Shown here piece by piece: positions 2,471 to 37,677 of a stretch of 64,000 bases of DNA. The notes under the pieces are model-generated. The model was not told where the DNA came from. It did not search any database and saw only the letters and a program-made list of their open reading frames with translations. Where the stretch lies: positions 298,602-362,601 of the forward strand of contig NQMI01000036.1 of NCBI GenBank assembly GCA_002270565.1, written 5' to 3'. This stretch comes from Stenocarpella maydis. Its lineage: Eukaryota; Ascomycota; Sordariomycetes; Diaporthales; Diaporthaceae. How positions within the stretch are numbered: the stretch's first letter is position 1; each line of letters opens with the position of its first letter. Made by a program: the position numbers and the translations under genes.

Positions 2471-3548
2471 TGCCTAGTCTCACTCTGTATCTTGGATCGA
2501 GGCTGTCTCTTATTCAATGTAGAGTCGAATAGTCATTCAGTCTGCACTAGGGATTTGTTTGGGTGTAGAGCCCTAGTATTAGCGGGGGAGAGATGTCTGA
2601 GTCTGCATGAGGCCCCGAGAAGAGACAATACCAGTCAGTATTGGGAAATAGATTGATCGAGGATGGTGCTTCGCATCCTTTTCCCTTCCTTCTTATGTGA
2701 ACTCTGGCGCTCATACGGCGCAGCTGGAGATGTGACTGCTGAGCCTAGTCACCTGGCCGAGCTGCGGCCCTTGTGACCTGGCTGCCTTGAGCATGTGAGA
2801 GGGTTCCGAGAGTCAACCACGACGCCATATGGGTTGCCTATGCCTTGTTCAAAAATTGAGCGTCAAAAAAAAAAAGGCCTGAAATAAAGAGATATTGAGT
2901 CAGAGTTGGAATCCAAACCTTACACCTGCTAATATAACCCTGAGGCTTCGAGAGTGCATGTCACAAATGACATCGGCGTGGGTACAACCCTGTTGACTTA
3001 TACCCGCCACTTATACCACAGGGTCCAACCCTAGCCGCGACTGCACATCAGCCCAAAATCCCTACTAAAAAAAAGACCACCAAATACCATCTGTCATGGG
3101 AATGTCAAAACCCACCTCCTGACATGGCTCAGCAATGCCGTGCTCCGCCGCCCACGCCATCGGTCGAACTGTTGTGGCAACATGGCCAGACGCTATCGGC
3201 CGTCTATGGTCCTTCCGGACCCTCACAGATGTGGGCCTGCAGATAAGAATCATCCGCAGAAGGGCCACGGAAACAAGCTCTTTTACGTACGGGGGATAAT
3301 GCAATAGCTTGAGGCAGACCGAGGGCCGACTCCACAATGCCCACACGAGTGGAAAAAATTCAGAATGCACATAGGGTCCAACTGTCGCGTGTCCGGCTTC
3401 CTCTTTCGCCTTCTCTCCTCCTCTCTCTCTCTCTCTCTCCCCCCCCCTCCCAAGATGGATCATGGGGGAGACGAGAACACCCGCCTGAGCAGCCCGACCA
3501 GTTGAATACAACCTCCCCGACGACACCAGAAACCCCCCTCCAGCCAGT
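2471..3548. other. Intergenic region upstream of permease
   Basis: It contains the divergent upstream regions of the hypothetical gene (-) and the NCS1 permease (+). A short A-run lies near 2865-2877 and a strong pyrimidine tract lies just before the permease ATG. No gene is supported. Confidence 0.5.
3400..3451 (+). repeat. CT microsatellite / pyrimidine tract in permease leader
   Basis: This nearly pure C/T tract has a (CT)n core followed by a C-run. It lies about 100 bases before the permease ATG at 3549. Such tracts are common in the promoters and 5' leaders of filamentous-fungal genes. A direct regulatory role is inference. Confidence 0.7.
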
Positions 3549-5078
3549 ATGCCTCGAGCGTACGACGAGGAGAAGAAGCTCGGCCGCGTGGCCTCGCAGG
3601 CCGCCGACTCGGGCTCCGAGTCCGTGGGCAGCGGCAGCTTGCTCGACAGGCTGCTGTCGCTCGAGGCCACCATGGACTCCAAGCTGGGCATCGAGTCGCA
3701 GGCCATTCAGAGGATGCGGCCCGAGGACAAGCGGCCGCAGTCGTGGCATGAACAGGCGACCATGGCACTGCTGTGGGCCGGTGCTACCATGAACGTCAGC
3801 TGCCTGTCAACCGGGTTCCTGGGATGGGAATTCGGTCTCGATCTGGGCCAGACCATCCCCATCACCATCTTCGGCACCCTCCTCGGCGCGTCGGTCGCGG
3901 GCTGGTGCGCCACCCTCGGGCCTGGCACTGGCCTCCGCCAGATGTCGGTCGCACGTTATAGTTTCGGCTGGATGCCCTCCAAGATCGTGGCGGCCCTGAA
4001 CGTCATCTCGCAGATCGGGTGGAGCGCCGTCGGCTCAATCACGGCCGGCTCCGCGCTGTCGGCCGTGTCAGACGGGAGACTCAGCTCCATCGTCGGCATC
4101 GTCATAATCACCGTCTGCAGCTCCGCCCTGAACTTCTGCGGCCTGCGCGCCATCCTCAGGTACCAGAAGTATGCATGGGCCGTCTTCTTCGTGCTGTTCA
4201 TGGTCATGTACGGCGAGATGGCCCCGCGCTCCGATGTCGCCACCAAGAGCACCCTGACGGGCAACGACAAGGCTGGCGCCGTGCTATCGCTGCTGGCCGT
4301 CGTCTACGGCTCGTCTGTCTCGTGGGCCACGATTGCCGCCGACTACTACGTCCAGCACCCCACCAACACTTCCACGGTCAAGGTCTTCACCCTTACCACC
4401 CTGGGCATCGCCATATCTACATGCATTGGTATGGTCCTCGGCTGCTGCGTGGGCTCTGCCATGGGGGCCGACCAGGAGCTCGCCGACGTGTACGAGGAGC
4501 AGGGTGTCGGCTTCCTGCTCCAGGCGATGCTGTTCCCACGCGGGTTTGCAAAGTTCGTGCTGGTGCTGCTGGTGCTTGCCGGTATCTCAATGGGCAGTGT
4601 AAATCTCTACTCGTCGGCGTTGTCAGTCCAGCAGTTCGCACGCCCGCTCGCACGCATCCCCCGCTTCGTGTGGACTGTTGTGCTGTTCGGCATCACCCTG
4701 GGCATTGCTGCTGGTGGCAGAGAGAACCTCAACGCGTACCTGCAGAACTTCCTCTCTCTGCTCGGCTACTGGGCCACCTCCTTCTTCATTATCCTCTGGT
4801 GTGAACATTACATCTTCCGCAAGGGAAGCTTCGATAACTACGATCTCGAGGCCTGGAACGACCCTTCGAGGCTTCCTCTGGGCCTTGCCGCCCTGGTAGC
4901 TTTCCTGATTGGCGTTGTTGGTTGGGTTGTCGGCATGGTCCAGACGTGGTTCACGGGCCCGGTCGGCCAGTTGCTGGGGAGTGCTGGTGGAGACTTGGCA
5001 AACGAGCTGACCTTGGTCTTCACCCTCTTCATCTTCGCTCCTCTGAGGTGGCTGGAGCTGAAGCACATTGGTCGGTAA
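3549..5078 (+). CDS. NCS1 purine-cytosine permease-like transporter, 509 aa
   Basis: This is an intronless 509-residue polytopic membrane protein of the nucleobase:cation symporter-1 family, fungal Fcy2/Fcy21 branch. The family imports cytosine and purines with protons across the plasma membrane. A hydrophilic N-terminus of about 65 residues precedes roughly twelve hydrophobic spans. The first spans contain the family-typical stretch around residues 74-110 (NVSCLSTGFLGWEFGL followed by Gly-rich TM2). LGPGTGLRQM near residue 125, followed by ARYSFGW, resembles the NCS1 loop in which a conserved Arg and Phe/Tyr precede TM3. Length is normal for the family. The ATG at 3549 is the first in frame and follows the pyrimidine tract. 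Specificity (cytosine, adenine, hypoxanthine or a related purine) cannot be read from sequence. No lesion is visible. Confidence 0.9.
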   Translation: MPRAYDEEKKLGRVASQAADSGSESVGSGSLLDRLLSLEATMDSKLGIESQAIQRMRPEDKRPQSWHEQATMALLWAGATMNVSCLSTGFLGWEFGLDLGQTIPITIFGTLLGASVAGWCATLGPGTGLRQMSVARYSFGWMPSKIVAALNVISQIGWSAVGSITAGSALSAVSDGRLSSIVGIVIITVCSSALNFCGLRAILRYQKYAWAVFFVLFMVMYGEMAPRSDVATKSTLTGNDKAGAVLSLLAVVYGSSVSWATIAADYYVQHPTNTSTVKVFTLTTLGIAISTCIGMVLGCCVGSAMGADQELADVYEEQGVGFLLQAMLFPRGFAKFVLVLLVLAGISMGSVNLYSSALSVQQFARPLARIPRFVWTVVLFGITLGIAAGGRENLNAYLQNFLSLLGYWATSFFIILWCEHYIFRKGSFDNYDLEAWNDPSRLPLGLAALVAFLIGVVGWVVGMVQTWFTGPVGQLLGSAGGDLANELTLVFTLFIFAPLRWLELKHIGR

Positions 5079-6581: not shown

Positions 6582-8540
6582 ATGACACAACTTGATGCAA
6601 GCATCAGCAGCTCTGAGCTCAGCTCACTCACAGCATTGCACCTCGCCGTACTGACAGACAACTACCACGATGTCCGGAAGATCGTCAATGAAAGGGAGCA
6701 TGGTGTAGACGAGCGTACCGCAAGTGGTACGACGTCTCTCATGCTTGCTGCCCTTTACGGACGATCCAGAATTTTCACCTTCCTCCTCCGCAAGAAGGCG
6801 TCCCCGCACAAGAAGGACAGCCAAGGAAACAACGCCCTGGTGTATGTCAAGAGGAATTCGCCGTTCGTTCAAGACCTTCTTCATAATTGCAGGTGCATTA
6901 CGAAAAGCGAGGCTCATAGAGCTGGCCGGCGAGAAATATACGGCTGGCTCAAGGCGATCAAGCATGCAGCCAAGATCGCGTACCACAAGGGATTCGCAGA
7001 TGGACGCGCTGCTCGAGTCCAAGGTGAGGTTCCCATTCAGGCTTCTTCGCACACGGGTAATTCCATTGCCCAGAAGCCTTCGCAGGATTCACCGGTGCGC
7101 TTTGCGTATCTTCGGTCTCTAAACGGCAAACAGCAAAAGGTCGTTGAGGTCAGGTGTATTGCTTCTGCCGAACATGGCCGTATTGGACGCAAGTGCACCG
7201 GCTTTATCTACGCTACAGGCATAGATAACGCCCCCAGGTTTGCGATCTCAGGCTGGGGTTGCGCCAAGGACAAAAATGATGTGTTCAAAAATGTCCTCGA
7301 TTCCAATGAGTATACCGAGCTTGTGAGGCGAGTGGCGGGAGCTCTTGATTTCGAGCTCAAGAGCCATCACTTTGATTTGGTCAGTGCCCATCCGCCGCAG
7401 GTTCCAAGCACTAATAGACCCACTAACCATATTTCCAGCACTTCTCAGGTTGTCCTTCCAAAAAGAAAGGCGCTTATTATGCTTGCCATGCCGAGGTAAT
7501 TACTACCCTATTGCATAAGCGTATTACTGTTGTTCCCTTGGAACTTTAGCAACTGACTTTACTCATCCAGAAACAGCTGGCAGTCCATGTGCTTCTCAAA
7601 GCGCTTGCCTACGTGTTTGGCACAAAATCGGTGACAACGTACAAAATTACCCATATAAAACTCCAGCTCGACAAGTTGCCACCAGGCTTACGCGAAACTA
7701 CGATCCACTTGGATCACGAGCTGGTGTGTGGCAATTGCGTCCAGGTGAGCAGACCTCGAGAGCCACTAAGCCAAGACGGATCGCAGCTAAACTCAAGTTT
7801 AGTTTCTTAAGCTATTGACTCAGAAGAGCGGCCTTGGTTTTCGATGCCAGTCTCACGATTGGTTTGTGTGCGGGGAGCGTCCTCAACTCCGTCGCATGCC
7901 CGACGGAAGCTACGCCCAAGTCATAGCGCCAAAACCCTCTGGGCCTGACCACAACCACGCCACAGAGATCATCGATGATGAGATTGGTATTTTTGACTCG
8001 GTTCAAAATGGGGATCCAGGCCTCCAGAATGGCTGTGTGGATCCTGAGGGTGACAACCATATGGAGCATGGTGGCTCAGTCACTCAGCCGAAGACATCAA
8101 ACGACCGAAAAGGCCACGCGAGGCAGCTGGTCCTGAGAGTGCAGTCAGAGTTCTATGAAAAGAAAGGCTCACCTGTCTTGGAGGAACCCACATACAATAG
8201 CGACCGATTTCCTAAGCTCGATGTCACGCCGCCTTCGCGGCAGCCTCAGACGTTTCACACTCAATCGCACGAGCGCATCACCATGTCTCCAAGTCCAGCA
8301 GTAGGGTCCCGTACTTTTGGTCCGCGCAAAGACAGTATATCTCCGATGATGTCTCCGGAATTCGAGGTCGAGGATATTCTGCAGACCAAGGAAGAGGACG
8401 GTATACGACTTTTTCTTGTCAAGTGGAAGGCCTATTCACACGACAACAATACGTGGGAGCCTGAAGCTAATCTCGGTAATGCCTCAGACGCCATCGAGAA
8501 GTTCTGGAAGGAGCTTCAAGAGGCATCTGTTATGCTCTGA
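6582..8540 (+). CDS. Ankyrin / DYW-SsdA-like deaminase / chromodomain fusion protein, 581 aa
   Basis: Exons are 6582-7379, 7439-7495, 7571-7744 and 7824-8540; all three introns are phase 0 with good signals. Residues about 16-100 form ankyrin-type repeats (LTALHLAVLTDNY, GTTSLMLAALYG). Residues about 180-370 form a cytidine-deaminase-like domain: CHAEKQLAVHVL with His283 and Glu285, then VCGNC with Cys338 and Cys341, the expected zinc ligands. HxEK-Q-L-A followed by CGxC resembles the DYW family of plant RNA-editing proteins and the bacterial SsdA-type single-stranded-DNA deaminases, which have fungal relatives. Intron 2 falls exactly between Glu285 and Lys286. After a Ser/Pro-rich linker, residues 523-575 are a chromodomain (FEVEDILQ...KWKAY...TWEP) with the aromatic cage Phe523, Trp544, Tyr547. 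Inferred role: a chromatin-targeted nucleic-acid deaminase, presumably nuclear. The substrate is unknown. The fold call rests on motifs, not on a profile search. Confidence 0.8.
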
Positions 8541-9394: not shown

Positions 9395-11111
9395 ATGCGC
9401 GACTTCATAGACTACCTCCAAGAGGCCTTCATAACAGCCAGCGGCGGAAACACATATGACAATAGCGTAACACACATCACAGCCTTGTCCCCTAAAAGCC
9501 CAGTCCCACTTGCTGACCACCGCGCAGTACTCCAACCTCGACCTCACATCCCGCTCTCTGCTGCACTTTCCGACGCCAACTGGCAGCAGGATCACCCTGT
9601 CATCATTCGTGAGGCCCAAGTTCGGCACTTCATACAGCATAGGCATAAAGGACGGGTGGGTCTCGTACCTCTACTCTACCCTGCCCACCGACGCTACCAC
9701 CAGCTCGGACCGCATCCCCCTGCCCGACCTCCTGCGAAGCTACCGCTCGCTATCCACCAACGCCGCCCGCCACGCCGTCGGCCATGGCCTCGTCTACGGC
9801 CGCCTGTACCTCCCCCAGAGCAGGCTGGAGGCCCTGCTCGCCGCACGCGTCACCCCCGAGGTCAACCTGACCATCCGCGCCGTCAGCCAGGAGACCCTGC
9901 GCCAGGGCGGCACTGCCTTGGCCCTGGCCTCGTGGGACGACCCCGCCGGCCGCTTCGGCCTCGAGACGCTCGCGTCGTCGGACGGCGGCGTGCTGGGTCT
10001 CAGAGGGCTGTGGAACGCAACCAACCCTCCTGCGCGCACCCCCAGTACGGATTCGCCCGCGGGGGCAGCGGCATCCCAGCCCAGCACGGCCATACCCATC
10101 ACGCCGGCGCCATCTTCTCTCGCTGACCTGGCTACAGCTGCTGTTCCTGCCGCCGCCGCCGCCAATGCGGCGGGAAGCAACCACAACACCGACAAGGAGC
10201 GCATCAACGGGCGCTTCAGCGTCGGCGGCGAGATCTACTACGGGCTGCTCAACAAGTCGGGCGGGCTCAGCCTGGGCGGGCGGTTCCAGACGCTGCCGAC
10301 GCACGCGGGCACCCCGCTCACGGCGGCGCTGACGTTCAACCTGCTGGGCCACTTCAGCGCGACCTACGCCGTTATGGCTGGCCCGGGGTGCACGCTGGCC
10401 AGCCAGTTCGGCTTCAACGTCTACAGTTACGAGAGCGAGTGGGCGGTGGGCGTGGAGTTGTGGCGCGCCGGGCGGCGGAGGAGTGACGGGCGCGGAGGAG
10501 GTACGCCGCCGGGCCCGGCTGATGCCGCTGCCGGAGCGGGGGGGACGAGGGCTGTCGAGGGTGAAGCTGCTGGCGACCCAGCTCATATCCCATCGCAGGA
10601 GGCCGAGGCGGTACTCGCTGCCAGGGCGGGGCTTAACCACGAGATCGACGCGAGCCTGGCGGAGGCCATGCACGTGAGGGAAGCTAGCAATAACTCCATC
10701 AAGACCGCCGCCGCGGCACCGCCGCCGGGGACAACGCCGGAGTTCAAGCAAACGACCAGACAGCGAAGCTTCCAGGCGAAGCTGGAGTGGCGGCTCGACA
10801 ACGAGGATGCCGACCACTCGCGGCCGGCAGCATACGACCCCTCGACGGGGGCAAAACTCACCACCACCACCGCGGGGCTTAGAGGGTCCCCGCCATACGG
10901 CGAGAGCGGGTGGCAGGGTGACGGCGATGGTGGCGAGGATGGTGCGCCCACCGGAGTGGTCAAGTGTCGGTGCGACCAGCACATGCGGGTCGGCCTCATG
11001 TACGAGGGCCGGTACAAGTCCCTGCTGTTCAGCCTCGGCACGGACGTCGACCTCCGCAGGCTGGACGCGCCGTTCCAGGGGGTCGGACTGGCGGTGCAGT
11101 TCTCGTCATGA
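9395..11111 (+). CDS. MDM10: Mdm10, mitochondrial outer-membrane beta-barrel protein, 551 aa
   Basis: Exon 1 is 9395-9466 (24 codons) and exon 2 is 9528-11111; the 61-base intron has a GTAACA donor and a CGCGCAG acceptor. The mature N-terminus MRDFIDYLQEAFITAS joined to LLHFPTPTGSRITLSSF and FGTSYSIGIKDGWVSYLYS is characteristic of fungal Mdm10. Mdm10 is a VDAC-like barrel of the ERMES ER-mitochondria tether and also a subunit of the SAM/TOB barrel-assembly complex. The C-terminus (YEGRYKSLLFSLGTDV, then GVGLAVQFSS) is the last strand with a beta-signal-like end. It is longer than many orthologues because of two low-complexity insertions: Ala/Pro/Ser-rich residues about 210-255 and Gly/Ala/Asp-rich residues about 350-500. 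The long open frame on the opposite strand is a composition shadow. The reading frame is intact. Confidence 0.93.
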
Positions 11112-31752: not shown

Positions 31753-34065
31753 TTAAGTCGCCCCGATGGCCTTGTCCGCGGCCAGGTCCTGCTTCACAGG
31801 ATGGATGAGCGTGCCTCTTAGGCACATTCTCCCCGACTCCTTCTCGGCTTCGGGGCCACCCGCGCCACCAGACTCACGGCCCAGCCACCGGTGCCACAGT
31901 GGGGGGCCAAACTCGGTGTTGTAGTAATAGCTGGCCGTCAGGAAGTTGGCCTCGCCCGTGCCTGGGGTGAAGGGGAAGTAGTACACGCTCGTCTCTGGTG
32001 TCTCGGCCTTGTTGAACACCGAGTCGAGCCTGTCAAGTGGCCAGCGCCTATCAAAGTAGACGGGGTGTGGTATATAGACGGCCTTGAGGCCATGGTGCAG
32101 CGCAATGGACCCCGGGAACATCTCGGGGAACATGGTGTGTTTGTTACGGGAGGCCTCCTCGTGCATGGCCTGCAGCAGGCGGCGCGAGAAGCGGCCGATG
32201 GTGATAATGGAGGTACGGCGGGGCGGGACCGACTGGTTGTAACCGGTGATGTCGTAGCGCAGACACCATGCGTTCTTCTCGGGGTCAAAGAGCGGGTTGA
32301 GGGTGATGAGGTCGGCTGGCTCGCCCACGCCCCACTCGTACTTGTCCTTGTCCATAGGGTGGGGAGGGAAGGTGGAGGTATCCACGACGCCATCATTGAA
32401 TATGGGGCCCCAAGGGCTGGGGAAGTTGCTAGCCTTGGTCTCCTCCTCGACGTGCTTGACGAAGTCCTCCCAGCTCCCGTGCAGGCCAGGGATCCAGTAT
32501 CTCTCGTTGCGCTCCCACAGATACTTGCGCGGCTGCTTGTCGGACCACCTGGCAGCGGCATCGAAAAACTCAAAGTAGTTGCCGGTATAGCGAAGGTCTA
32601 TCTCCCAGTTCCAGAAGAAGTCGTACTCGGGATGGTGCTGGGCGAACCACTGCAGCGCAAAGTGTGGGATGCGATAGACGCTGTAAAGGGGCTTCCCGCT
32701 GTCGTTCTCGATGGTCATGTCCTCTGTGAAGCCGGGGTAGTATTCGGCCATTGCAGGCACGGACCAGGGGGTGGTGATGTCCCAGAACTCCTGGGGGATA
32801 TTCTGCTCGACCATCTTGCGCGCCGTTTCGGGGTTCGAGATGTTGATGGAGTCGTCGGTAATGTGCATCAGGATGTGGACATCGTACTGCCCGCCCGTCT
32901 TGAGGGACAGCTCGGTGATGAGGGACCTGGTGGTGATGATGCGCATGGGCGACCACTCAATGCCGGTCCAGGCGCGCAGGACAAGGGCGTTTCGAGCGAG
33001 GGTCTTCTTGCCAGCCATCTTCTCGGCCTGGGACCACAGCCGCGACAGTGCGCCGTCTGGCTTGTTGACGGCGTCCTTGTCCAAGCCAAAGCGCTCCCTG
33101 TTCTTCTCGAGACACCTCTTTTGCACCTGGTCCCACTTGATGTTGGAGTAGTCGATCCTGGGTATCATCTTATCCAGCGCTGACTCCCCGGACGGGACAG
33201 ACTCGAGCTCGAAGCCGCCCTGTGCCTTGGGATATGAATAGCCATAGGGGCCGAGCCTGCCAAAGCGCTCAAAGCATTGGTTCGGGGTCAGGCCGAGCTC
33301 TTCATAACCGCCAAAGTAGGGAGCAGGCATGCCCGCCGGGATGCCGGGGAAAGAAAAGGTGTCGGGAGCAGGTACGGTGCCTTGGTCGTCGAGGAAGCAG
33401 GCCTGGACGCCGTCAAGATGGGCGTATGGATTGGCAACGGTGGGCTGAAGAGGGATCTTTTCTGCCACCTTGACGTCGGCAGACTCTTGGAGCTGTTCGG
33501 GAACCCATCGCTTGTAGTCGACGAGGGTGCGGACGCCGTGGAAGAAAGCCTGGAGGCTGATGGAGGGTTGACAGGGGTTAGAAGAATTGAGGGCGTGCAT
33601 GTGGGTGCGGACGGGAGCTCACGGTTGGTAATCGTTCCAGTGGTATGGTACCTGTTGGAAAGGAGTCTGGTGGTCGACCTTTTCGGCGCCGGGGGGCGTT
33701 GGGATGGTCGGGTCTATAGGGTGCTGGTCTTGGTGTATCGGGGCTGACGGGGGCCTCGCCCACTCGTCATGCGTCTTTGAGGTCGGGATGGCCCATAGTC
33801 GCCTGCTGTAGAGGAAGAGACAGACTGTGAGGATGATGCATGTTGTGAGGAGCTGCCTGAAGGACGGCGGATGCATATTCCTGCACGCCTTGACGAGCAA
33901 GGACGGCAGCGGCCGCGAGGGACGGGAGGGCGTCGGAGGAGGGTCGTGGGGCAGGGGCCCAAGGTCGTTGTGGCCGCCGGACGAGGATATCCTCGAGGAG
34001 TGGCGTCGGTGGTGGGTGTGGGCGTGCTTGTTGTCGTCGTAAGGCAAGACGTCGCCCTCTCTCAT
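31753..34065 (-). CDS. DUF3405 family type II membrane protein, 748 aa
   Basis: Exon 1 is 34065-33623 and exon 2 is 33556-31753, with a 66-base intron (GTGAGC ... CCATCAG); phases 2 and 1 join to one codon. The start MREGDVLPY is chosen because it matches the short acidic start I expect of this family, whereas longer upstream extensions look non-coding. Residues about 70-92 (LLTTCIILTVCLFLYSRRLW) form one membrane span after a cytosolic Pro/His/Arg-rich tail. The large lumenal part contains WTGIEWSPMRIITTRSLI, YDVHILMHITDD, YDFFWNWEIDLRYTGNY and HHGLKAVYIPHPVYFDRRWP, typical of DUF3405 (PF11885). These proteins are widespread in filamentous fungi, have a glycosyltransferase-like appearance and have no firmly known function. 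A 430-codon antisense ORF is a codon-bias shadow. Confidence 0.88.
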
Positions 34066-35901
34066 TGTCGAGTAGCAAAGTCGCAGGAGTAGCAAGCAGC
34101 TGAGGTCTGCAGGGCCGTCTCCTATCCGGCCTGGACTGACATACACTAGACCGGGTGCGGCAGATCTTCTCTTTTCCTTCGAGACCCCCAATGTCCAGGT
34201 CCACCTATTCCAGGCGCGGCAGTTGGCCCCACTGTGCCTTGACCTGTTTGATCTCGCTCGACGGGCGAGCTTATCGGCGGATGGAGGCGGACAGGAATGT
34301 TTGATCTTGGTCGGGTCGTTGCTAGTAGTAATTAGGGAGTTGGCGCGACTGGGTGCGATTTGGACGCCCGGGGCCGGGACACAGGGAGACAAAAAGATGC
34401 CTAGATGGATCAATGCCTCGTGTATCTGGATGAGATAGAAAGAGAGGACGACGGAGACAAGGTGAGCAGATGCGACAGGCTGCCCAAAGACGCAAGCAAC
34501 GAAAAGTACAGTGTGTGAATACTCCGTGCGCGACGACAGAACAGTATGAAATTATGGGGCAAGGGCCACCTTGGACGAGGGCCACTTTTGCTGAAACGAG
34601 CGGACGTGGGTGACGAGTTTTGCCCAGAAACACAAGAGGGAATAGATGGCCTGTTCACTGGGGTTGAGAGGGTCATGGAAGGGGGGGGGGAGGAAGAAGG
34701 AAAAAAGAGAAGAAAAAAAGTAGACGGTTGATTGATTGATTGAAGATGATTACTGATTGAACGAGAAATAGTTGGCCCGTCGTCGTCGCCTCCCCCCAAA
34801 GCGGCCGGAATGCACCTGTAAGGAGCTAGTGTATACGTAGTAGTGTACTATGTACGTACCCTAGCTAGGTAGGGAGCTGGTTCCTTCCCGCTGCCCGCCT
34901 GCCGTCCCGAGTTCTCCTGGCAAGGATCAGCCAGACACTGTCTTGGCTGCTGCATTCAAGTCTCGAGCATCTTCCCATATGTTATAATTAGATACTTATT
35001 AGTCTGCATAATACACCTTGATCCCGGTAATTATATCCATCTAGCCATCTAGGCGAGAAGGAAAAAAAGGACTAGATATAAAAAAAGCCGATAATATAAT
35101 ATAACTAACTCAATCTGATGTGGGCTGTGTACCTACCTAGGTACTATGTAAATGCATGCATTAAGTGGCGTTGCACTCTGTTACAGCGCAGAGCACCTCG
35201 GCCATCCAGCCAGCCAGCTCGAGTATTCGCCTGCCTGTTCTGGTTACTAGTGTTCGCGTACAGCATTTGCGTATAGATGGACAAATTTCCACATTTAACC
35301 CCACAACCAATCCAGCCAGCTAAGCATGTCGATGATGGATGCCCGTGGCAGATGACCTCAGGAGCCATAATTCTCTGGCACTCAGAGACCCAGGTCTTAG
35401 CATCCGAAACAGCTCTCCGGACCCGATACCAGTTCTGTTGAGTATCAACAGACCACCAAATGATGTACTTAAGTATGCACAGCCACACAGCCACGTGCCA
35501 CGAGCAGCTGGCAGGCTGGCCACAACATCTCCTCGGCCCTTGCAACAAATAACAAGGACTAGGGTATGTGGGAATACGGGTGGTTTTTTTTTTTTAATCC
35601 GGTTACAATTCCCTTTTTGTTTTCCTTCCTTTTTTTTAAAAAAAAGAAAGGAGCTATAGCAGGGCCTTTATATAGTCATAAACACTTAAAAGTATTATAA
35701 CCACCACAGTTAGCACCTAACTACTATGAAAGACAGCCCTAGGTAATTATATAAGGGTTATGAATACAAGCAGAGTAAATAAGTATATATAGCGGCCAAG
35801 TAGCAAAGTAGTAGCATTGGAGCAGTATATTTATCAAGGTAGTCAGGTGCCATCTGGGGTAGTTCATAATAGTATTGATCAGGTTAAAACGAAATCACTA
35901 G
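34066..35901. other. Intergenic region with AT-rich stretches
   Basis: The upstream region of DUF3405 contains a 10-base G-run at 34681-34690 and AT-rich segments at about 34980-35110 and 35580-35900 (TATA-like and poly-T/A stretches). These resemble old repeat remnants or isochore-like fungal AT blocks. No gene is supported. Confidence 0.5.
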
Positions 35902-37677
35902 CTACAATAGTGTGCTGGCTGGCAAACTCGTATCTTCGTAACTCTGATATTCAGGGTCCCGGACTATTTCCCTCCTGACCGTTGTGGTAACCATTATTCC
36001 GCTATGCTCAACCTCGACCTCTTCTCCCAAAGGTGTCAGAGACTTTGGGAGCACCTCGACCACACTCGTCGTGCCGATCTGTCGCCTCAACATTTCCTGC
36101 CGACTCCTCTGCCCGACAGGAAAAGCCTGCATCCTGTCAACCCACGAGATCCTCTCCCTAGGAGTTGGCCCTAGCCTTCCATGCATTTGCACGGGCTGCC
36201 CAGGATGCGGGTCCATTGGCTCCAGAAGCTCATGCAACTGCGGCCCATCGCTGCGGATCGGGCTTCTATGCGAGTTGCTACTGCTTTGCCTCGGATGACT
36301 CGATTGGTCGTCTTTGTTGCGCTTCGCCTTTTGCAGTGTCTTGAATAGAATAGCCAAAGATGGCAGGGTTGAGCACAATACGAGGGCGTCCACCTCGGCT
36401 ACTGACCAAATAAGAGGTACCGTGTAGTCATCTGAATTAAGCCGTTAATATCTTCAAGCACACCCCTGTCATTTACACGTCGAGAATTTACATGTGATAT
36501 CTTTACTTATATGAACCACTGCGGCTGCCCGGCCGATTGTTGACACCGATACCCTGTTGTAGAGACGATCAGCGTTTCCTTCCTCGAACGTAGCTGTTAA
36601 TACATCTTCTGCTCGCGAGGTACAACTCACAAGCAAGCGGCGACAAGATGAACCAACGGCCCAACCATCCCGGATAGTGGGAAGGATCGTCTGGTCCACA
36701 GTGATAGAACCGGCTGTAGAAATAACAGCATATCGAATATGAGATTCAACGTGAACCCTGTACACCACATTGGCTTCTGCTCTAAGCAGAACGCGTTGAC
36801 CTCCACGACAGCCCTGTCCGACTGTGGCTGACATGAGAATAGACACACAATTGTCTCTTCAGCACCTTGCAGGATGAGTAATGAGATGAGCACCCTCTTA
36901 AGAAACAGTCGTGCTTGGCTCTTGTTCCTGTCAAGAGCCCGGAGATAATAATTCAGGATGGTCGCCTTTGCAAGGATCAGACTCATGCTGTAACTTATAC
37001 CCGCTACTATCGCAATCTGCCACAGCAATTAGCCGTCATGATACGGAGGCCACGTCGACGTCTTGTGCTTGCCTTCATGAAGACGGGTAGGCGTTCCACG
37101 TCGACTTCGCTCAGATGCTTCCCTAGACCCAGGGTAGTAACTTGGTTATATCGTCAATCGCCTGGCCATCGGTTATCTCTCCGGGGTCTGATCGGTAACA
37201 CTCACGGAGACATGTGCTCACGTTGAGCACGAAGGCGAATACCTGACGGGTCAGCCGGTGTCCTTAGCATCACCAAACGGGTCTGCGTACAAAACTCAGG
37301 GTTATCATGCCTGGATGAAATGAAGTCGTCAGCACCATCCAAGCAGGGCGAACGAAATGCTGCTCTTAGGAAGACATGGTGTGTGTAATGGCTTATAGAC
37401 GCTACTCTTCCATACGCCGCAGTCATCTGTGTATTCCTAGGAAACTCAGAGGTGTGTCGCGCGGTATCGAGACGTTGGCCAGATGATGACCCATCAATGG
37501 GGTGGGATGATGCATGGTGTTCTTTTTTTGTCCTGCTGCTCGCTTACCGTCTTCCATCTCAAATGCCCTCATCACAGCCGCCTTTAGTCCGGCCCTGGCG
37601 ACCAGGACCAGGCTCGTGAATGTGAGGAGGCATATCGGTGTGATGAAGGCTACCGAGGTCAGCTCTTGCTCAGACAT
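35902..37677 (-). CDS. Rhodopsin-domain (Pth11-like) membrane protein, about 400 aa, six exons
   Basis: Proposed exons on minus: 37677-37548, 37242-37206, 37140-37073, 37016-36631, 36553-36492 and 36431-35902. The product has about seven hydrophobic helices: SVAFITPICLLTFTSLVLVA; VFAFVLNVSTCLLTTLGLGKH; IAIVAGISYSMSLILAKATI; then helices around CTGFTLNLIFDMLLFLQPVL and GMVGPLVHLVAACL; DITYDYTVPLIWSVAEVD; and LVLCSTLPSLAILF. The GLGKH, DxTY and WSVAEVD stretches are typical of the fungal rhodopsin-domain family (PF20684), which includes Pth11-like receptors. The C-terminal tail of about 150 residues is hydrophilic. The intron 37072-37017 appears to be GC-AG. Exon 1 ends at phase 1 whereas exon 2 needs phase 0, so either a different acceptor is used or one base is extra near 37547. 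It is possibly a sensor; the ligand is unknown. Confidence 0.65.

Follow-up and report, generated by a model that had tools for sequence, protein, structure and literature searches.

Can one fungal polypeptide both recognize a histone mark and deaminate cytosine in the chromatin that carries it? The question is raised by a locus in a 64,000-nucleotide stretch of Stenocarpella maydis DNA (the window), where ankyrin repeats, a deaminase domain, and a chromodomain are encoded by one spliced gene (6582–8540, + strand). Our preferred reading, held tentatively at a little under an even chance, is that the product may be a nuclear cytosine deaminase of the SsdA type, dependent on zinc and directed to single-stranded DNA in chromatin that carries methyl-lysine marks. 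The C-terminal chromodomain would tether the enzyme to such chromatin by binding methylated H3, the zinc-dependent deaminase would act on cytosine in single-stranded DNA exposed there, and the N-terminal ankyrin repeats would bind partner proteins or serve in regulation; the protein might also play a part in genome conflict or defense. We found no assay of a fungal SsdA/DYW-type deaminase in the available parts of the literature on the family, and the presence of a built-in chromatin reader turns the role of these enzymes into a directly testable question: which histone mark is read, whether DNA or RNA is deaminated, and how loss of the protein affects mutation in heterochromatin.

Gene Model

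When joined, the four exons give a single open frame with HAEK at residues 283–286 and CGNC at residues 338–341 (Table 1). The introns are all phase 0 and all GT...AG, and introns 1 and 2 each contain a CTRAY-type branch site. Relatives provide outside support for intron 1: in all 29 metagenomic frames that run into its position (P0003, P0004, P0007–P0032, and P0050), a GTN codon is found at that point (encoding V, with S or R after it), which is what an unspliced donor would read. In the P0003 frame, the expected start of intron 2 likewise reads GTN.

Table 1. Features of the gene and its product, in window coordinates; residues are numbered on the 588-residue product
Feature	Positions	Strand	Remarks
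Exon 1 (798 nt)	6582..7379	+	Start codon, ankyrin repeats, helical linker, first deaminase half including SGW
Intron 1 (59 nt)	7380..7438	+	Collinear with D. citri protein; donor conserved in 29/29 frames
Exon 2 (57 nt)	7439..7495	+	Ends with H283-A284-E285 (7487–7495)
Intron 2 (75 nt)	7496..7570	+	Contains in-frame stop
Exon 3 (174 nt)	7571..7744	+	C338 (7727–7729), C341 (7736–7738)
Intron 3 (58 nt)	7745..7802	+	Corrected, probable acceptor; end at 7823 in the earlier note
Exon 4	7803..8540	+	Deaminase end, linker, chromodomain, stop; single open frame
Ankyrin repeats, residues 16–91	6627..6854	+	Pfam Ank_2, Ank_5
Deaminase domain, residues 171–372	7092..7889	+	PF24120; genomic span including introns 1–3
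SGW motif, residues 223–225	7248..7256	+	
Chromodomain, residues 530–579	8361..8510	+	PF00385
Cage residues F530, W551, Y554	8361–8363, 8424–8426, 8433–8435	+	

An earlier note on this DNA had proposed three phase-0 introns; the first two stand as it read them, but comparison with relatives makes it more likely that intron 3 ends at the TAG at 7802 than at the CAG at 7823. We prefer the former because relatives retain a helix after the CxxC motif which the latter acceptor would shorten, removing seven residues (FLKLLTQ). Two residues past CxxC, the corresponding stretch is FLQLLTQ in P0001 from Diaporthe citri and FLQMIFE in P0046 from Gnomoniopsis smithogilvyi; the annotated model of P0002 from Diaporthe eres lacks CxxC, yet has FLKMLTQ. 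The same stretch aligns with the cytidine deaminase 4EG2 directly after the CxxC of that enzyme. The frame alone cannot choose the acceptor, since six of the eight AG sites tried leave it open to the stop. Counting against 7802, the 58-nt intron has CTAAAC and no CTRAY branch site, and the longer intron of the earlier note ends near a TTGAC. With the corrected acceptor the product has 588 rather than 581 residues; the 581-residue product was used for the whole-protein Pfam scan and for the protein search that found the D. citri relative.

Exon joining and Pfam matches bear out the proposal that one frame carries ankyrin repeats, a deaminase-type zinc signature, and a chromodomain. An annotation artefact, in which two neighboring genes were merged, has a negligible probability in our estimation and is rejected: no observation made here speaks for it, exon 4, uninterrupted and stop-free, holds both the last part of the deaminase and the chromodomain, and the identical fusion, in the same order, is annotated in D. 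citri.

The Deaminase Domain Is Related to SsdA

The Pfam family SsdA_C (PF24120) matches the 581-residue product at E = 9.6e-15 (55.4 bits; curated cut-off 27 bits) and the deaminase domain alone at E = 2e-15 (57.6 bits). It is also matched by each of the five fungal sequences in our domain alignment (A5). Comparison of the A5 profile with 177,635 PDB sequences ranked SsdA (7JTU) first, with a weak E-value of 0.026, and the cytidine deaminase 4EG2 second, with a weak E-value of 0.17 over the CxxC half; the remaining two of the four matches at E ≤ 10 were another entry for SsdA (0.40) and a peptidase that is not related (0.44). We consider the weak E-values persuasive because SsdA is matched in the SGW and HAEKQ blocks and the cytidine deaminase, separately, in the CxxC block. 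A PDB search made from one sequence returned nothing of use.

HAE, CxDC, and SGW are the motifs sought in SsdA-like candidates (PMC11789416, section 13). In the available text of PMC7901873, SGW is described as unique to BaDTF2 members and as occupying an insertion, helical in SsdA, at the place where RNA-editing DYW proteins carry a PG motif. The SGW and HAE blocks of the window protein align in order with those of SsdA, with 59 positions between SGW and HAE in SsdA and 70 in the fungal profile. In this alignment of the fungal profile with SsdA, SGW falls in what would be the region of the DYW PG motif, before the HxE helix. The helical insertion by SGW in SsdA has a counterpart in the predicted structure of P0001, where a helix separates SGW from HxE. 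By motif comparison the domain is kin to SsdA, but outside the BaDTF2 subfamily, because it has CGNC in place of CxDC.

The motifs recur among the 37 family proteins retrieved. SGW is present in 35, that is, in all 35 that cover the site, the other two beginning downstream. HxE is present in all nine with sequence beyond intron 1 (27 end inside intron 1, and the annotated P0002 model lacks the HxE exon), and CxxC in all seven that reach it. The motif residues between the putative zinc ligands vary, with HAE here and HSE in D. citri, and with CGNC here, CGSC in D. citri, and CDCC and CLCC in Gnomoniopsis. These counts bear on the proposal that the fold is catalytically dead or marginal and has been reused as a chromatin scaffold. 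Such a reuse would accord with the deviation of the zinc motif from CxDC and with the absence of the catalytic exons from the D. eres annotation, but it is rather improbable given the retention of HxE (9/9) and CxxC (7/7) in the retrieved proteins covering them, the annotated P0002 model aside, and given that the deaminase is among the two best conserved domains of the protein.

The zinc signature had been described as DYW/SsdA-like, with profile matches to DYW, SsdA_C, or OTT_1508 models as one check. The SsdA side of that description holds (SGW, PF24120), and SsdA_C and Chromo both far exceed their cut-offs in the 581-residue product; its DYW and OTT_1508 side does not, as none of the five A5 members has a match to either family listed at E ≤ 10, and the whole protein has no OTT_1508 match listed at E ≤ 1. 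The DYW hallmarks are absent as well: the sequence ends in ASVML, with no C-terminal DYW tripeptide, and has no CxC past residue 341. Further Pfam families were matched by one A5 member each (GNAT_like, 0.024; DddA-like, 0.12; HicA, 0.17). An NCBIfam scan listed no family for the window's deaminase domain; for other A5 members it listed two cytidine-deaminase models, each matched by one member (best E-value 0.0043), and two unrelated models.

Related DYW enzymes edit RNA, and the protein might accordingly be a chromatin-associated C-to-U editor of nascent transcripts. Plant PPR-DYW RNA editors are placed in the same DYW-like subgroup of the deaminase superfamily (PMC7901873, available text), and members of the family in plants and fungi are stated to contribute to organellar RNA editing (PMC11789416, available text). 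Unlike the PPR-DYW editors, the window protein has SGW and no listed PPR or DYW Pfam match; with the DYW tripeptide and the downstream CxC also missing, and with a chromodomain that would be odd in an organellar editor, we regard RNA editing as improbable and favor single-stranded DNA as the candidate substrate.

A scan of contigs for prokaryotic relatives, made with the A5 profile via one peptide pattern, gave two matches, neither of them a relative, so a bacterial origin of the deaminase rests on the profile matches and the literature.

Predicted Structures of Relatives

AlphaFold models were made of the relatives P0001 and P0046. In the P0001 model (mean pLDDT 59.4), the ankyrin part is predicted with high scores (ten-residue block means of 93–98 from residue 21 to 150), whereas the deaminase is modeled weakly, with block means of 45–74 over residues 181–370. 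CxxC begins a helix (349–362) in this model, and HSEK lies within another (288–310) rather than at its start. The P0046 model has a lower mean pLDDT (46.6), with block means of 28–83 over residues 141–340 and of 61–83 from 251 to 330; here HAEK begins helix 255–272 and CxxC begins helix 310–323, a predicted order that fits a cytidine deaminase. PDB fold searches with the two models returned no deaminase among the 50 matches listed per search, almost all of which are ankyrin or DARPin entries (5cbn is not evidently so). As these places are filled by ankyrin entries, the absence of a deaminase from them is uninformative either way.

Chromodomain, Ankyrin Repeats, and Conservation

The Chromo family (PF00385) matches the C-terminal domain at E = 2e-14 and Ank_2 matches the N-terminal repeats at E = 9.1e-7, both over the curated cut-offs. 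An intact three-residue aromatic cage had been read as Phe523, Trp544, and Tyr547; it is confirmed, and the residues become F530, W551, and Y554 in the 588-residue numbering. D. citri has Y/W/Y where the window protein has F/W/Y. The best PDB match of the chromodomain is that of MPP8 (E = 6.2e-11). Within the host genome, the closest chromodomain is of the integrase type (L006, 55 bits), and that of a host-like protein (L007) scores 44 bits over a shorter stretch; these scores are suggestive of capture of the domain from a chromovirus or other retroelement.

The nearest named protein is P0001 of D. citri, in which ankyrin, SsdA_C, and Chromo all exceed their cut-offs in identical order. The two proteins are 66% identical over the deaminase, 70% over the chromodomain, and 58% over the ankyrin repeats; for the two linkers the values are lower, 41% and 51%. 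The better conservation of the functional domains suggests selection on the deaminase and the chromodomain. In P0002 of D. eres, Chromo exceeds its cut-off and the ankyrin and partial SsdA_C matches fall below theirs. The annotated P0002 model skips both phase-0 exons in which HxE and CxxC lie, which points either to a mistake in the annotation or to a splice form without catalytic function.

Among the five relatives with C-terminal sequence, the chromodomain is present in two (P0001 and P0002) and unmatched in three (P0005, P0006, and P0046; two annotated Gnomoniopsis proteins and one metagenomic). These three have the ankyrin-deaminase core, with ankyrin matches below cut-off in P0046, and because they have no chromodomain match, chromatin tethering would not be a family-wide property. 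Each of the three protein searches scored about 8,000 candidates, so that the size of the family and the number of lineages with the chromodomain fusion are minimum figures; most Logan matches are single frames that end at an intron and are unable to show a chromodomain, and 13 proteins with ankyrin-repeat matches (P0033–P0045) were left out of the family counts. In the annotated P0005 model, from a Gnomoniopsis species, the residues that follow CxxC in P0046 are missing, probably through a missed exon.

In a further explanation, the protein is an intracellular conflict effector: the ankyrin repeats would sense a virus, a non-self nucleus, or a parasite protein, the deaminase would damage nucleic acid, and the chromodomain would be a lineage-limited nuclear anchor. 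The relatives P0005, P0006, and P0046, with the core and no chromodomain match, fit such a role, as does the kinship of the deaminase to a bacterial toxin, and at least 13 toxin domains are reported to have been transferred to fungi, possibly for use in intraspecific conflict (PMC3482391, available text). We nevertheless hold a conflict effector to be unlikely, since a single genomic copy was found, between a permease gene and MDM10, both ordinary genes, at a locus that is not obviously variable, and since the chromodomain is as well conserved as the enzyme. A second match in the host genome (L002, at G000:C108) was below cut-off and was rejected; its open frame resembles an aspartic protease by eye.

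For the chromatin-tethered deaminase that we prefer, the points to be set against it include CGNC rather than CxDC, the weak modeling of the deaminase, the position of HSEK within a helix in the P0001 model, the lack of a deaminase among the listed fold matches, the CpA type of the RIP seen in the host genome (below), the D. eres model without catalytic exons, and the three relatives with no chromodomain match.

Repeat Mutation in the Host Genome

Deamination directed to repeats, which the earlier note had suggested, finds no positive sign in the host genome, where the repeats bear CpA-type RIP. There are at least 146 chromodomain matches in this genome. By our own count 131 of those listed carry stops, and TGA is included in only 11 of these, which is what change at CAA and CAG would give. 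Chromodomain repeat copies such as L009 and L011–L032 have TAA and TAG stops at recurrent places and a G+C content of 21–42%, a picture of strong RIP. Of the 50 stop-bearing chromodomain loci listed, 23 were compared in 253 pairs, over 457,813 aligned bases; the pairs share ancestry, and their sites are not independent. C/T-type change accounts for 77,062 of the 86,790 mismatches, and discordance is 70% at NCA, as against 27% at YCY and 22% at RCY; at NCG it is also high, 36–78%, on few sites. SsdA prefers a YCY context (PMC7901873, available text). The repeats carry the CpA-type signature without an SsdA-like YCY preference, and the context preferred by SsdA may not be that of the fungal enzyme.

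At least six C5-methyltransferase loci (L033–L042) lie in the host genome, against the two, RID and DIM-2, of Neurospora, and the genome also encodes a chromo-shadow (HP1-type) protein. Together with the CpA-type RIP, these indicate that the DNA-methyltransferase route suffices for the repeat mutation observed. Pfam lists no C5-methyltransferase domain of the RID or DIM-2 type for the window protein. RIP by RID and DIM-2 joins H3K9me3/HP1 chromatin to C-to-T change, as the proposed enzyme would, and its precise mechanisms are called unclear (PMC12543289, available text); it uses C5-methyltransferase homologues, whereas the window protein is a predicted deaminase. In its fullest form, the proposal of a tethered deaminase would make the protein a histone-mark-guided DNA mutator in one polypeptide, a deaminase of bacterial-toxin ancestry domesticated in Diaporthe-like fungi and aimed by its chromodomain to inflict C-to-T damage in heterochromatin repeats, beside RIP or as the missing deamination partner of RIP. 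We consider this form improbable. A deaminase with its own chromatin reader nevertheless has a bearing on how RIP works, and it would be a natural analogue of engineered fusions that direct deaminases to selected DNA.

Relation to Known Systems

MPP8, of the HUSH complex, also combines a chromodomain with ankyrin repeats in one protein, in a different domain order and without a deaminase; its C-terminal region is among the fold matches for the ankyrin part, as its chromodomain is the best match for ours. Unlike SsdA, a bacterial toxin of interbacterial antagonism, the window protein is encoded by a spliced eukaryotic gene in a 53.5-Mb assembly and is fused to ankyrin repeats and a chromodomain, and the gene is flanked by the permease gene and MDM10, with no immunity gene. 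It shares its ankyrin and deaminase parts with the fungal SsdA_C proteins P0005, P0006, and P0046, which differ in having no chromodomain match.

The observation of fungal ankyrin-deaminase proteins reportedly originates with Iyer et al. in 2011, whose account may also describe the chromodomain fusion. Ankyrin fusion of fungal enzymes in the SsdA/DYW-type family is already in print (PMC11789416, available text). Among the titles and opening lines of abstracts in the literature on chromodomains and deaminases, or on fungal ankyrin and deaminase proteins, we found no report of a chromodomain-deaminase fusion. As far as this literature extends, the new part is the built-in chromatin reader, the ankyrin-deaminase kind being already known.

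The Surrounding Locus

Downstream of the gene lies MDM10 (window 9471–11111, + strand; PF12519, E = 7.2e-98), and its presence next door suggests a conserved core locus. Upstream, on the same strand, is a frame for a cytosine/purine/uracil permease (window 3489–5078, + strand; PF02133, E = 2.1e-23); that a pyrimidine transporter adjoins a putative cytosine deaminase may be coincidence. The RIP indices of the gene are similar to those of the whole window, in which G+C content ranges from 47 to 65% in 2-kb windows. This composition, the short GT...AG introns, and the neighboring MDM10 have the look of DNA from a filamentous ascomycete. Among the 2-kb bins, that at 34001–36000 has the highest TpA/ApT (1.07) and the second-lowest G+C (0.49), and is possibly mildly RIP-mutated or intergenic.
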